Shown piece by piece: positions 33,962-39,520 of a stretch of 46,695 bases of DNA. This DNA is from Spirochaetes bacterium ADurb.BinA120. GTDB lineage: Bacteria; Spirochaetota; UBA4802; UBA5368. Made by a program: the position numbers and the translations under genes. The DNA lies in contig MVZN01000020.1 of the NCBI GenBank assembly GCA_002069125.1, positions 1 to 46,695 on the forward strand, read 5' to 3'. How positions within the stretch are numbered: position 1 is the stretch's first letter; each line of letters begins with the position of its first letter. The notes under the pieces are model-generated. The model did no database searches and was not told the DNA's origin. It saw only the letters and a list, made by a program, of their open reading frames with translations.

Positions 33962-34915
33962 CTACTCGTCCTCCCTGCCCTGGTACAGCCTTGCGCCAGG
34001 CGGAACGTCTCGCGTTACCCATACGTTTCCGCCGATCTCCGCACCGCGCCCTATGGTGACGCGCCCGAGGATCGTCGCGCCCGAATATACTATTACATCG
34101 TCCTCCACGACCGGATGCCTCGGGATCCCCTTGATGGGCCTTCCAGCCTCGTCGAGCGGAAAGCTTTTAGCGCCGAGAGTCACGCCCTGATATATGCGGA
34201 CGTTGTTGCCTATAATGCAGGTTTCGCCGATGACAACGCCGGTGCCATGATCAATAAAGAAACGCTCGCCGATACGGGCGCCCGGATGGATGTCGATTCC
34301 GGTGGTGGAATGGGCCATCTCGGTGATTATCCGAGGGATGAGGGGCACGTCGAGGCGGTACAGCTCGTGCGCGATGCGGTAGTTAGTGAGGGCGGTTATG
34401 CTCGGATAGCAGAATATGGCCTCTCCCGGACTTTTAGCCGCAGGATCGCCCTCGTAGGCCGCCTGCACGTCCGTTGACAGCACCCGCCTTATCTCCGGAA
34501 GGGCCCCGATGAACGCAAGCGTGGTTTCGCGGGCCCTGGTCTCGCACAGCGCGCAATCGAGCGTCCCCTCCCTTTCGCACGAGAAGCACAGTCCCCTGTT
34601 TATCTGCTCGGCGAGGATGAGGAATATCCGGTCGATCGCCGAGCCTATGTAAAACCTCATGGTTCCCGGCTTAAGCTCGGGGTGTCCGTAGAATCCGGGG
34701 AATAAGACCGCGCGCAGGAGGTCGACTATCTCCCCGAGCGCCTCGATCGAGGGCATGGCGACCTCGTGGTGCCCGCCGTGAAATACCGGCTCGTACGATT
34801 CCGGCCGGCAGAGGGCGCCTACCACCGACTCGAGCAGCCGCACGTATTTTCCGTTTATCTCCCCGTTTTCGCTCGAAAGCCTCTTCGCCGCGCCCGCGCG
34901 GCATGACTTTTCCAT
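33962..34915 (-). CDS. cysE: Serine O-acetyltransferase
   Basis: CysE acetylates serine for cysteine synthesis. The 317-residue protein has an N-terminal helical domain and a C-terminal left-handed beta-helix of hexapeptide repeats (DIHPGARIGERFFIDHGTG onward, about 205-305), with the catalytic histidines in IDIHPGA and FIDHGTGVVIGE and the GVTLG loop. Its length and extended N-terminus match the EpsC/SATase-like branch. An insertion CFSC-x7-CALC (about 109-123) gives a four-cysteine group that could bind zinc. A promoter candidate lies upstream with a leader of about 125 bases. It has no cysK neighbour here. Confidence 0.93.
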   Translation of the reverse strand: MEKSCRAGAAKRLSSENGEINGKYVRLLESVVGALCRPESYEPVFHGGHHEVAMPSIEALGEIVDLLRAVLFPGFYGHPELKPGTMRFYIGSAIDRIFLILAEQINRGLCFSCEREGTLDCALCETRARETTLAFIGALPEIRRVLSTDVQAAYEGDPAAKSPGEAIFCYPSITALTNYRIAHELYRLDVPLIPRIITEMAHSTTGIDIHPGARIGERFFIDHGTGVVIGETCIIGNNVRIYQGVTLGAKSFPLDEAGRPIKGIPRHPVVEDDVIVYSGATILGRVTIGRGAEIGGNVWVTRDVPPGARLYQGREDE

Positions 34916-35093: not shown

Positions 35094-36260
35094 TCAATCA
35101 TATAGTTGGTGGGCATTCGCCTGATCCCTGAATTCATCTTCCTCCGAAGCCCAACTCGCTGCGATCGCCTTCAGATCGGCGCCGGCCTCTATCATGCCGC
35201 GCAGCGCGTCGTTTCCGGCGAGAAGATCGAAGGCCGGACGGCCCGAATTGAACTCGTACACCCCGTGCGGGAAGCCGCATCCGTCCCCGTAAAGCCTTCT
35301 CGCCGCCCAGACCACGGCCACGCCCGCAAGGAACGGGCGAAACGATCCGGGGTCGCCCAGGTGCAGGAAAACGCCTCCCACGGTCCGGCCCGCAAACTTG
35401 TTGAATGTAGGCCGGAAATATGTCGGCCGGAATCGGACGCCGGGAATGTTCTGGGCGTTCAGCATGGCGGCGTATTCCTCCGGCTCTATGAACGGGGCCC
35501 CGCAGAGCTCAAACGGCGTAGTGCTTCCGCGCCCTTCGGATAGGGTGGTGCCTTCGAGGAGGCACATCCCCGGGTACACAAGGGCTGTCCCCGGCGTGGG
35601 CATGTTGGGGGAAGGGGCCACCCAGGGGAGACCGGTCTTTGCGTAGAGCATGGAGCGACGCCATCCCATCATCCTCGTTATCTTTAGATTTACGTCGAGC
35701 CGGTGACGCTTGCGGTACCACAGCGCGAGCTCGCCCGCGGTAAGTCCGTGCCGTACGGGCAGATGGAAAACCCCGACGAAGGACTCAAAGCCCGGTCCAA
35801 GCGAAGGGCCCTCCACGGCAAGCCCCCCGAGAGGGTTGGGGCGGTCGAGCACCACAAACTCGAGATCGCGCCCCGAGACGGACTCCATAAACATGGCCAT
35901 GGTGTTCACGTAGGTGTAGTACCGCGAGCCCACGTCCTGAATATCGAAGATAACCGTATCGATTCCATCCAGCACCTCCTCGAGCGGTCGCAGCGAGTTT
36001 ATGGAATCCCCGTAAAGGCTTATGATTTCCGGCCCCGCCCCGGGCTGCCCGGCGACAGGCACCTGGTCCTGCTCCGTGCCGTAGAGGCCGTGTTCCGGCG
36101 AGAACACCCGCCTGAGGCGAAGGCCCAAACGCGAGAAGGCCCGCCATGAGTATTCGAGCGAGGGAGTAATCGAGGTCTGGTTGGCGATGAGCGCAATGGA
36201 GCGTTTCGCGTAACGCCCGCTTTCGGAAAGAAAAATATCGAGCCCTGTACGCACATTCAT
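35094..36260 (-). CDS. namZ: Exo-beta-N-acetylmuramidase, NamZ/DUF1343 family
   Basis: NamZ removes MurNAc from the non-reducing end of peptidoglycan fragments. The 388 residues show the family motifs FSPEHGLYG (about 53-61), VIFDIQDVGSRYYTYVNTM (about 104-122), DRPNPLGG and PSPNMPT. The chain starts directly with the catalytic domain (VRTGLDIFL, residues 3-11): there is no signal peptide or lipobox, unlike the secreted B. subtilis enzyme, so it is probably cytoplasmic. Its ATG overlaps the murU stop as ATGA, and the upstream genes are the MurNAc-1-phosphate route enzymes, which supports intracellular salvage. Confidence 0.92.
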   Translation of the reverse strand: MNVRTGLDIFLSESGRYAKRSIALIANQTSITPSLEYSWRAFSRLGLRLRRVFSPEHGLYGTEQDQVPVAGQPGAGPEIISLYGDSINSLRPLEEVLDGIDTVIFDIQDVGSRYYTYVNTMAMFMESVSGRDLEFVVLDRPNPLGGLAVEGPSLGPGFESFVGVFHLPVRHGLTAGELALWYRKRHRLDVNLKITRMMGWRRSMLYAKTGLPWVAPSPNMPTPGTALVYPGMCLLEGTTLSEGRGSTTPFELCGAPFIEPEEYAAMLNAQNIPGVRFRPTYFRPTFNKFAGRTVGGVFLHLGDPGSFRPFLAGVAVVWAARRLYGDGCGFPHGVYEFNSGRPAFDLLAGNDALRGMIEAGADLKAIAASWASEEDEFRDQANAHQLYD

Positions 36261-37180
36261 GCCTTAAGCACCTCCCCGCCCAGGACAACGGCGTTTTCGA
36301 TACGCGCGCCGGCTTCCACACTGGAACCCGGCAGCAGGAGCGATGAAACGACCCGCGCGCCTGGGCCCACAGCACAGCCCTCCCCTATCACCGAAGCCAC
36401 TACCTTTGCGTCGTCCGCCACCCGTGCACTGCGCGCGACGGGAGAGGCGTCGAAGCCGCAGCCTGCGGCGGCCCTCTTAGCAAGGGGCGTATCCGCCAGG
36501 CCGAGTGATGCCGTGCGAAGCGAGCCTATCGAGCCGATGTCGAGCCAGAGGCCCTCGTGCTCGTAGAAGTCGAGCCGTTCGTGCGTTATGAGCCCCGTGT
36601 AGCCCGTGTACACTATGCTCGAAAAGCCCTCCTCGAGATAGCGGAAAATCGACGGGGAGAGCACCGCCGCCCCGGTATAGACCAATCCCGAAGCCACGCC
36701 CGTGCCCAGAAAATTCTTAAAATCGACCACACGCCCATCCCGAACTCCGGCCTGTCCTATCGACGCGGCCCCGGCTGCGCGATATAGAACAACCGTTCCG
36801 GGCGATGAGCTTTCACGATGCCGCCGGACGAGCGACGCCACATCCAGGTCCATTACGACATCGCTGTTAACAAGCAAAAAGTCGTCCCCCTCGAGCTCCT
36901 TCCTGCAATTCATCAGGCCGCCGCCGGTGCCCAGAATCTTTGGCTCGTACGAGAACGATACCTTAAGGCCGAAATTGTCCCGCTCCTCGAAGAAAGAGCG
37001 TATTATTTCGGGCCGGTAGTGCAGGTTTACGACCGCCTCCTTTATTCCGGCCGAGACGAGAATAGATATCGCATAACATATCGAGGGGACGTTGGCGACC
37101 GGAACGAGGGGCTTGGGGAAAATGTCGCTTACCGGCCTCAGGCGCTCCCCATATCCAGCGGCCAGTATGAAGCCCTTCAC
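36257..37180 (-). CDS. murU: MurNAc-1-phosphate uridylyltransferase, MurU-like
   Basis: This nucleotidyltransferase should form UDP-MurNAc from MurNAc-1-phosphate and UTP. The Rossmann-like N-terminal domain has LAAGYGERLRP (6-16), PKPLVPVAN (22-30), GTGGG and the metal aspartate in VNSDVVMD. Beyond it, about 80 residues (from 225) show hexapeptide-like repeats (ARVADDAKVVASVIGEGCAVGPGARV), an addition not found in the 220-residue Pseudomonas MurU. The GTG start at 37180 makes a GTGA overlap with amgK; an in-frame GTG at 37198 is possible. Other sugar-1-phosphate nucleotidyltransferases are similar, so the call leans on the amgK and namZ neighbours. Confidence 0.82.
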   Translation of the reverse strand: MKGFILAAGYGERLRPVSDIFPKPLVPVANVPSICYAISILVSAGIKEAVVNLHYRPEIIRSFFEERDNFGLKVSFSYEPKILGTGGGLMNCRKELEGDDFLLVNSDVVMDLDVASLVRRHRESSSPGTVVLYRAAGAASIGQAGVRDGRVVDFKNFLGTGVASGLVYTGAAVLSPSIFRYLEEGFSSIVYTGYTGLITHERLDFYEHEGLWLDIGSIGSLRTASLGLADTPLAKRAAAGCGFDASPVARSARVADDAKVVASVIGEGCAVGPGARVVSSLLLPGSSVEAGARIENAVVLGGEVLKA

Positions 37181-38190
37181 GCCCGGCCGCCTGCACACTC
37201 TAAGAGCAGCTCGAACACGCGCGAAAGCTCCGAGCGCCTCGAGGCGTACCCGCCGAGGTATGAGAGCGTGGAGGCTATGTTGGGCTCGTACCTCCGGCGG
37301 CCCAGCACGCGCGACTGGTAGGCGAAGGTGCCGACCGCCTTCACGTTGCGCTGGAAGGCCGAAAGATCGAAGAGCCGGTCGAACTCCGCGCGATCCATGG
37401 AGTGAATGCCCGCCTCCCGCGCCGATCGGTAATAGCGGTCCATAAGGCGCTCGAATAGCGGCGCATCGAGGACGAGATAAGAGTCCCTGAGAAGCGAGGC
37501 CAGGTCGTACTGGGGAAGCCCCATGCGCGCGTCCTGGAAATCGATGATGCAGGGCCTGCCGTCGCGTAACATGATGTTCCGAGAATGGAAATCGCGATGG
37601 TTCAGCACGAAAAGTTCCGGGCGTTGGAGCGCGCCGGCCACGCCGAGAAATTCGGCGCGGAGCTCGCGGAAAAAGGACGCGGGCGCGGAAAAGCCAAAGT
37701 AGTTTTTTACGGCGTGTTCGATGAAAAAATCGAATTCGAACATTAGCTTTTCCATGTCGAACGAACGCCCGAAGGGCACCGGCGAGCCGTCGGGGGGGAT
37801 GGACTGAAGGCGCGCCAGAATGTCGAGGATGGCCCCATAGAGCGCTTCCGCTTCATCGGCCGGGAGGGATGGGAAGCTCTCCTCCACAAGCGTGTCGCCC
37901 AGGTCCTCGAGGAGCAGAAGTCCGCGCGCACGGTCCAGGGCAAGTACGCGCGGAACCGGCACTCCATAGCGTTCGAGAAGGGAATGCACCACGAGGAACT
38001 GGTGCTCCCCGTCCGCCGATAAGGAAATGGTTTCGTCGTAACAAACCATAACGGGCCCGCCGGGCGCATAAGCGCGGTAATACCGGCGCATGGAGGCGTC
38101 GCCTGCGAGCGGGATAAGGGCCGCGCAATCTCCCGCGTTCCCGCGCACGAATTCGCGGATGATGTCGTCGTTCGGCCCGTCTACCGGCAT
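37177..38190 (-). CDS. amgK: Anomeric MurNAc/GlcNAc kinase, AmgK-like
   Basis: AmgK phosphorylates MurNAc at C1 in the cytoplasm. The 337-residue protein belongs to the aminoglycoside-phosphotransferase fold: LEDLGD (95-100) hinge region, the catalytic loop H198-RDFHSRN (198-205) and the metal motif IDFQD (216-220). An APH-type antibiotic kinase is unlikely because the next two genes are a MurU-like uridylyltransferase and a NamZ muramidase. ATG 38190 follows GAGG. The gene begins 151 bases after the ftsZ stop on the same strand, with a GC-rich hairpin between them. Confidence 0.85.
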   Translation of the reverse strand: MPVDGPNDDIIREFVRGNAGDCAALIPLAGDASMRRYYRAYAPGGPVMVCYDETISLSADGEHQFLVVHSLLERYGVPVPRVLALDRARGLLLLEDLGDTLVEESFPSLPADEAEALYGAILDILARLQSIPPDGSPVPFGRSFDMEKLMFEFDFFIEHAVKNYFGFSAPASFFRELRAEFLGVAGALQRPELFVLNHRDFHSRNIMLRDGRPCIIDFQDARMGLPQYDLASLLRDSYLVLDAPLFERLMDRYYRSAREAGIHSMDRAEFDRLFDLSAFQRNVKAVGTFAYQSRVLGRRRYEPNIASTLSYLGGYASRRSELSRVFELLLECAGGRA

Positions 38191-38295
38191 GGCCGCGCCT
38201 CATCGGCCTCGACCGGCCATGGGCCGCCCGGCCGCGTCGTTCGTCCCGTCCTCGAAGGGCCGGGCCGAGAGATGCCGCCCCCCGCGAACGGAGCG

Positions 38296-38324
38296 GCGGC
38301 CCGTCCCGTTTCGGGGCGGGCCGC
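38296..38324 (-). other. GC-rich hairpin between ftsZ and amgK
   Basis: Two 13-base arms (38296-38308 and 38312-38324) pair with one mismatch around a three-base loop. There is no U-run on the minus strand, so it may weaken rather than end transcription from ftsZ into the salvage genes. Confidence 0.5.
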
Positions 38325-38341
38325 AAGGGAGGGGGAGGGGG

Positions 38342-39520
38342 CTATTCAATGTGACGCCGCAAAAAGGCGGGTATCTCCAGGTCTTCCGTGGAGGGGTCCC
38401 TGCCATAGTCCTTAAGCCTCCGCCGCTCGTAATCGAGCGAGAAGGTCTGCATGCTCGCGGGCACCTTTTTCTCTATCCTGCTCTTGCCCTCTATCAGGGT
38501 AAGCGAGGCGCCGTTTTTCACTCCCGCCTCGGCCTCGGGCTTTCTGTTCAGCATGTTCTTCTTTCTGTCGAAGCCCGTGGCGATAACCGTAACCCGAACC
38601 CTGTCGTTCAGGATGGGATCTATCGTCGTGCCGAAGATGATGTTGGCCTCCGGGTCGACCTGGCTTGTGATTAGATCGGTCACCTCGTTCACCTCGTGCA
38701 GCGACAGATCGTTTCCTCCGGCTATGTTTATCAGCACCGCACGCGCGCCTTCTATACTCGACTCCTCCAGAAGCGGGCTGTTTATGGCCATCTGGGTCGC
38801 CTCGAGCGCCTTGTTCTCGCCGCTTCCCAGGCCCACTCCCATGAGGGCGTCACCGGTCTCCCTCATAACGGTTCTGACGTCGGCGAAATCCACGTTTACA
38901 AGGCCGGTAATCATAATAAGGTCCGAAATGCCCTGCACGCCCTGTCTCAGGATGTCGTCGGCCAGCTTGAACGCGTCGTCTATAGGCGTGCGGCGGTCGA
39001 TAATCTTTAAAAGCAGATCGTTTGGGATGGTGATGAGCGTATCCACCTTTTCCTTGAGATTGCGGATTCCCTCCTCGGCGCGCTCGGCGCGTTTGCGCCC
39101 CTCCACCCTGAAGGGCTTCGTGACGACCCCGAGCACCAGCGCGTGCTGCTCCTTGGCCACCTCGGCGACTATCGGCGCGGCGCCGGTGCCTGTCCCTCCG
39201 CCCATTCCGGCCGTAACGAAAACCATGTCGGCGCCCTTAAGGGCCTTCTGGATTTTGTCCCGGTCCTCGTTGGCCGCCTCGCGGCCTATGTCCGGGTCGG
39301 CGCCCGCCCCGAGGCCGCGCGTAAGCTTGTTTCCTATCTGGATCTTCACGGGGGCCAGAGACTCCCTTAGTTGCTGGGCGTCGGTGTTGCACACGATGAA
39401 CTCCACCCCCTCCATGCCCGTTGCGATCATTCGGTTGACCGCGTTGCAGCCGGCGCCCCCGACGCCGACTACCTTGATGATGGTGACCAACGGTTTTTCC
39501 TCTTCCAATCTGAACATCAT
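38342..39520 (-). CDS. ftsZ: Cell-division GTPase FtsZ
   Basis: FtsZ polymerises into the division ring. The 392 residues contain GGAGCNAV (21-28), the tubulin signature GGGTGTG (107-113), the catalytic T7-loop NVDFADV and the conserved C-terminal peptide [10 protein letters not shown] for FtsA and other partners. The linker between core and tail is short (about 50 residues). AGGAG stands nine bases before the first ATG; a second ATG follows directly. It ends the dcw cluster and is preceded by ftsA. Confidence 0.98.

Follow-up and report, generated by a model that had tools for sequence, protein, structure and literature searches.

A leaderless NamZ encoded with AmgK and MurU: a probable cytoplasmic route of MurNAc salvage in an uncultured spirochaete

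Introduction

In Escherichia coli, cell-wall MurNAc is recycled in the cytoplasm by the MurQ route, in which MurNAc-6-phosphate is degraded through MurQ. Tannerella forsythia is devoid of MurA and MurB and depends on MurNAc from outside. Its salvage set comprises NamZ1/NamZ2, AmpG, AmgK, MurU, MurK and MurQ; MurNAc is fed to AmgK and MurU (PMC7670621), and the species is known to possess two NamZ enzymes, NamZ1 and NamZ2 (from a title cited in PMC10465942). In Pseudomonas, AmgK and MurU convert MurNAc into UDP-MurNAc and bypass MurA and MurB (PMC5371407), within an anabolic recycling pathway that runs NagZ-AnmK-MupP-AmgK-MurU. NamZ itself has been described in a review as an extracellular enzyme (PMC13204101). 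The NamZ of Bacillus subtilis (GH171, PF07075/PF20732) belongs to the same two-domain family as the protein presented here.

This report addresses a locus of an uncultured Spirochaetota genome (G000), in which amgK, murU and a namZ gene for a protein without signal peptide form one operon. The window is the whole stretch of DNA that was analysed, 46,695 nucleotides in length. Absences of genes in G000 are to be read as the outcome of family searches of a 3.5-Mb draft that is 96% complete and lies in 216 contigs. The AmgK-MurU step would be common to this locus and to Pseudomonas, but here a cytoplasmic NamZ, encoded in the operon itself, would supply the MurNAc; G000 gave no match to AnmK, and its NagZ-like enzyme looks exported. 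Like T. forsythia, G000 possesses two NamZ together with AmgK and MurU, whereas it differs in having MurB. It shares with E. coli a recycling of cell-wall MurNAc that would take place in the cytoplasm, but MurQ, present in both E. coli and T. forsythia, was not found in G000.

The locus and its neighbourhood

The three genes lie on the minus strand and overlap end to end (38190-35094). The first, amgK-like (37177..38190, minus strand, 337 aa), encodes a predicted anomeric MurNAc/GlcNAc kinase of the APH fold. The second, murU-like (36257..37198, minus strand, 313 aa, GTG start), encodes a putative MurNAc-1-phosphate uridylyltransferase domain followed by a C-terminal left-handed beta-helix, and the third, namZ (35094..36260, minus strand, 388 aa), an exo-beta-N-acetylmuramidase of the GH171/DUF1343 type. 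The overlap is 22 nt between amgK and murU and 4 nt (ATGA) between murU and namZ. The original prediction had taken the three overlapping genes for a sugar kinase, a nucleotidyltransferase and an exo-MurNAcase, and both the coordinates and the Pfam and NCBIfam matches agree with it. The kinase scores 99 bits with APH in Pfam, and its best NCBIfam matches are AmgK models, at 133 and 84 bits against curated cut-offs of 550 and 500. It matches a solved relative, 3csv_A, with an E value of 6.5e-30, and its HRD, RN and IDFQD motifs are invariant in nine relatives.

Immediately upstream of amgK, across a gap of 151 bases, lies ftsZ (38342..39520, minus strand; TIGR00065, 448 bits), and the operon forms the end of the cluster murD-ftsW-murG-murC-(ftsQ position)-ftsA-ftsZ. 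The window also contains glmS and mreB-mreC-mreD-pbp2-rodA. Part of the gap between ftsZ and amgK (38191-38341) is very rich in G+C and may fold into a hairpin, cccgccccgaaacgggacggg, for which attenuation between the division and the salvage genes is a possible role; promoter and terminator scans gave nothing beyond chance. Downstream of namZ is a cysE-like serine O-acetyltransferase gene (33962..34915, minus strand), whose product scores above the cut-off of an EpsC-type model and, at 175 bits, just below that of CysE. A cysE-like gene also stands 3' of namZ in seven relatives of family f1, and it is probably a unit separate from the salvage operon. The cysE-like protein has a long N-terminal part, its matched acetyltransferase domain beginning near residue 147.

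A NamZ without a leader

Both Pfam domains of the family, NamZ_N (237 bits) and NamZ_C (167 bits), are found in the window's NamZ far over their cut-offs and cover residues 22-387. An AlphaFold model, built from 14 sequences with a pLDDT of 80.5, matches the DUF1343 protein of Bacteroides fragilis (4k05) with a TM score of 0.88-0.89. The residues that are invariant over 136 aligned NamZ proteins (H57, G58, D106, T116, G151, E177, S217, S241, R244 and F250) are kept here, and so is E56, the glutamate of the PEHG motif. This motif reads PQHG in 21 of the 136 proteins, including L154, L167, L170, L178, L179 and L182, a group that takes in all Nitrospirota NamZ linked to MurU or MurU-AmgK. Should the characterised enzyme use the PEHG glutamate in catalysis, the PQHG subgroup would work differently or use another residue.

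The protein begins MNVRTGLDIF. On the minus strand its start reads TAA GGC ATG, in a frame that is open for only 389 codons, and an upstream start of any kind is impossible because an in-frame TAA (36264..36266, read on the minus strand as 36266-36264) stands two codons 5' of the ATG. The original prediction held that this NamZ has no signal peptide and would fall if a true upstream start supplied one; such a hidden start was looked for and is ruled out by the stop, and the N-terminus itself agrees with the prediction. We infer that the leaderless NamZ is located in the cytoplasm. The Bacillota relatives, 41-43% identical over the window's NamZ among the best 80 of 586 NamZ relatives, carry an N-terminal extension, mostly with a clear hydrophobic leader, whereas the window's NamZ is leaderless and joined to amgK-murU. 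These leaders, together with the review that describes NamZ as extracellular (PMC13204101), are in line with the contrast drawn earlier to a secreted Bacillus enzyme.

The genome G000 has a second namZ gene on another contig (C22, L072:8725-10029), encoding 434 aa with an N-terminal hydrophobic stretch that ends in the lipobox-like LLFLDCASQ; from these features the second NamZ looks exported. The pair of NamZ kinds recurs throughout the order, and most of these genomes encode a second NamZ with an export or lipoprotein signal at its N-terminus. A tree of 136 NamZ proteins recovers the clade of the window's NamZ as a single group with support; its 37 rows comprise 28 spirochaete rows (two of them duplicates, and the placement of the divergent L081 unsure) and 9 from Chlorobiaceae. 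Within the order, 22 of the 25 complete or near-complete members of this leaderless clade begin no more than 30 residues before the domain and without a strongly hydrophobic stretch, and the proteins of the clade mostly begin at M-V-x-T-G-L or nearby. The other three (L037, L044 and L045) are first-start calls with longer N-termini, and their starts are uncertain. In the clade of the second NamZ, a hydrophobic N-terminus is present in nearly every complete member, in most with a lipobox. Further NamZ proteins in G005, G009, G013 and G018 have hydrophobic N-termini and fall outside both clades; they were left out of the count of the leaderless kind.

Co-occurrence and linkage

In the spirochaete order, to which this count is confined, 26 of 46 genomes have AmgK as well as a leaderless NamZ, 18 have neither, and one genome departs from the pattern in each direction (26/1/1/18; Fisher p 1e-10, ignoring kinship). 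The exceptions are G011, with AmgK-MurU and no leaderless NamZ, and the incomplete genome G045, with a leaderless NamZ and no AmgK. Presence of the leaderless clade was assigned by best match and tree position, and G043 was counted as having both, because its namZ lies in two parts at two contig ends, of which one adjoins amgK-murU. Genomes with neither turn up repeatedly, in several families and inside one genus. In family f1 the amgK, murU and namZ genes are adjacent; in most genomes of the order that have AmgK, amgK sits right after ftsZ, whereas the positions of murU and namZ vary, and in other families these two can lie elsewhere. The co-occurrence is independent of adjacency, because it is kept where the genes lie apart.

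The linkage extends to other phyla, as seen in the loci of named genomes, which represent the best 80 of 586 NamZ relatives. Nine loci of that set are from Chlorobiaceae, and eight of these share the order amgK-murU-namZ. The Chlorobiaceae NamZ are nested within the spirochaete clade of the 136-protein tree with strong support, and their AmgK fall among spirochaete AmgKs with weaker support; together these tree positions suggest that the whole operon passed into Chlorobiaceae (L110-L113, L115, L116, L119 and L120) from a relative of the spirochaete order. Five of the six Nitrospirota loci in the same best 80 of 586 have namZ near a protein of 620-684 aa with nucleotidyltransferase and APH parts; in the sixth, the neighbour of namZ is a MurU that is truncated where the contig stops. 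The Pfam analysis covered two of the Nitrospirota fusions and a similar fusion in an unclassified bacterium (L182). The Nitrospirota NamZ beside the MurU-AmgK fusion is leaderless. A WOR-3 contig among the best 80 shows the order namZ-murU-amgK, and the Acidobacteriota and Myxococcota loci of this set have no such neighbours within up to about 5 kb on each side.

Pathway context in the genome

The sole match to MurQ in G000 is the SIS domain inside the window's GlmS. MurQ matches in the relatives were rejected, since most of them cover this SIS region only in part, within proteins about 610-700 aa long. AnmK has no match in G000; in the relatives its matches are weak and partial, mostly within proteins of about 1,450 aa, and were likewise discarded. 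One NagZ-like GH3 protein is encoded in G000, outside the window, and looks exported by its N-terminal hydrophobic export segment; it is the sole GH3 protein found, and a cytoplasmic NagZ was not found in this genome. The earlier remark that murQ and nagZ are missing here holds for the window, and the genome search for MurQ, NagZ and AmpG that had been proposed with it found neither MurQ nor AmpG in G000, with the NagZ-like GH3 gene lying elsewhere. AmpG homologues in the family members G005-G007 score about 250 bits, below the cut-off of 350. The PF01832 glucosaminidase, a possible maker of MurNAc-GlcNAc ends, was found in none of 12 genomes.

The occurrence of AmgK and MurU together, with MurQ not found, is as in the Pseudomonas type of anabolic recycling. 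MurB is present in G000 and in 12 of 12 genomes, which rules out MurNAc auxotrophy; the genome thus has de novo synthesis, and the operon would serve as a salvage route and not as the only source of UDP-MurNAc. A Mpl-like ligase encoded outside the window scores 358 bits against a cut-off of 388.7, as compared with 186 for the MurC of G000.

The proposed route

We consider it probable, at about 0.78, that the operon is a three-gene cytoplasmic route of MurNAc salvage. The original prediction that the module turns MurNAc fragments into UDP-MurNAc gains support from comparative genomics, through the co-occurrence and the linkage in other phyla. The substrate that enters the cytoplasm would be a fragment free of peptide whose non-reducing end is MurNAc, in its smallest form MurNAc-GlcNAc; characterised NamZ prefers a peptide-free MurNAc end. 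The leaderless NamZ, judged by its family and fold, would remove the MurNAc and leave GlcNAc. AmgK would phosphorylate the MurNAc at C1, giving MurNAc-1-phosphate, and could take the released GlcNAc too, as the name MurNAc/GlcNAc kinase, given to characterised AmgK, suggests. MurU, as its family implies, would use UTP to form UDP-MurNAc, which would then feed the MurC pathway or be joined to recovered peptide by the Mpl-like ligase. Such a route would bypass cytoplasmic NagZ, AnmK and MupP, and it adjoins ftsZ, where the wall precursor would be used.

A broader proposal, to which we give even odds, is that anabolic MurNAc recycling has a third form, distinct and widespread, of which this is an example. 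In it, a cytoplasmic NamZ would be the obligate partner of AmgK and MurU and would replace NagZ, AnmK and MupP, fed by the apparently exported NamZ paralogue. It would have been assembled more than once, as the Spirochaetota operon that spread to Chlorobiaceae, as the MurU-AmgK fusion of Nitrospirota and in the other gene order of WOR-3.

Anabolic MurNAc recycling could also operate with NamZ as a side activity, in the scavenging or clean-up of MurNAc-glycosides, most MurNAc being freed outside by the exported NamZ and the GH3 enzyme and imported as a monosaccharide. The apparently exported NamZ paralogue and NagZ-like GH3 protein of G000 could free MurNAc outside, and AmgK-MurU occurs once, in G011, without a leaderless NamZ. 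However, AmgK and the leaderless NamZ have almost the same distribution within the order and are linked in several phyla, and we regard the side-activity explanation as unlikely.

Within the route, the least secure assignment is that of the second enzyme to a particular sugar. The nucleotidyltransferase scores 83 bits with NTP_transferase in Pfam, along with hexapeptide repeats. In NCBIfam, it scores 138 bits with a mannose-1-phosphate guanylyltransferase model and, within residues 8-229, 125 bits with the MurU model, whose curated cut-off is 250; neither match reaches its curated cut-off. An AlphaFold model of the protein has a pLDDT of 91.5. When the whole chain is compared, the beta-helix brings GDP-mannose pyrophosphorylases to first place. 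Sequence identity within the 50 best PDB fold matches is highest for the MurU structures, which match the catalytic domain (31-32%, with target TM scores of 0.86-0.90). The beta-helix is encoded at 36257-36500, and shorter homologues from the same order (L050, L057 and L060) are devoid of it. The kinase and the nucleotidyltransferase might instead lead to a different nucleotide sugar, starting for instance from GlcNAc or from a sugar of the mannose type, which NamZ would free from a different glycoside. The beta-helix domain and the mannose-1-phosphate guanylyltransferases at the top of the whole-length fold and profile matches speak for this, but the catalytic domain is closest in identity to MurU structures, the short homologue L060 scores best with MurU, MurU is also the best match of the Chlorobiaceae enzyme, and ftsZ, murC and murG are the neighbours. 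Neighbours and closest identity favour MurU, and a product other than UDP-MurNAc seems to us improbable.

That three unrelated genes are neighbours by chance could be argued from the families of the order in which murU and namZ lie apart from amgK, but it is very hard to credit, as the co-occurrence holds even with the genes apart and Chlorobiaceae, Nitrospirota and WOR-3 show the linkage too; the comparative data already contradict it.

Significance of the cytoplasmic salvage operon

AmgK-MurU recycling, its use by T. forsythia and extracellular NamZ were already known, and the operon looks like a new combination of known enzymes. No paper joining NamZ with AmgK/MurU in one operon was found in a literature search that ran without the primary NamZ papers. 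The salvage operon offers a testable wall-recycling route for groups without MurQ and AnmK, an absence that was seen for G000; judged by gene linkage, the route is shared by other phyla. From the route one would expect NamZ, hitherto reported as secreted, to act in the cytoplasm, and a MurNAc-GlcNAc importer to exist. The route predicts, furthermore, that recycling would contribute to the tolerance of MurA inhibition.
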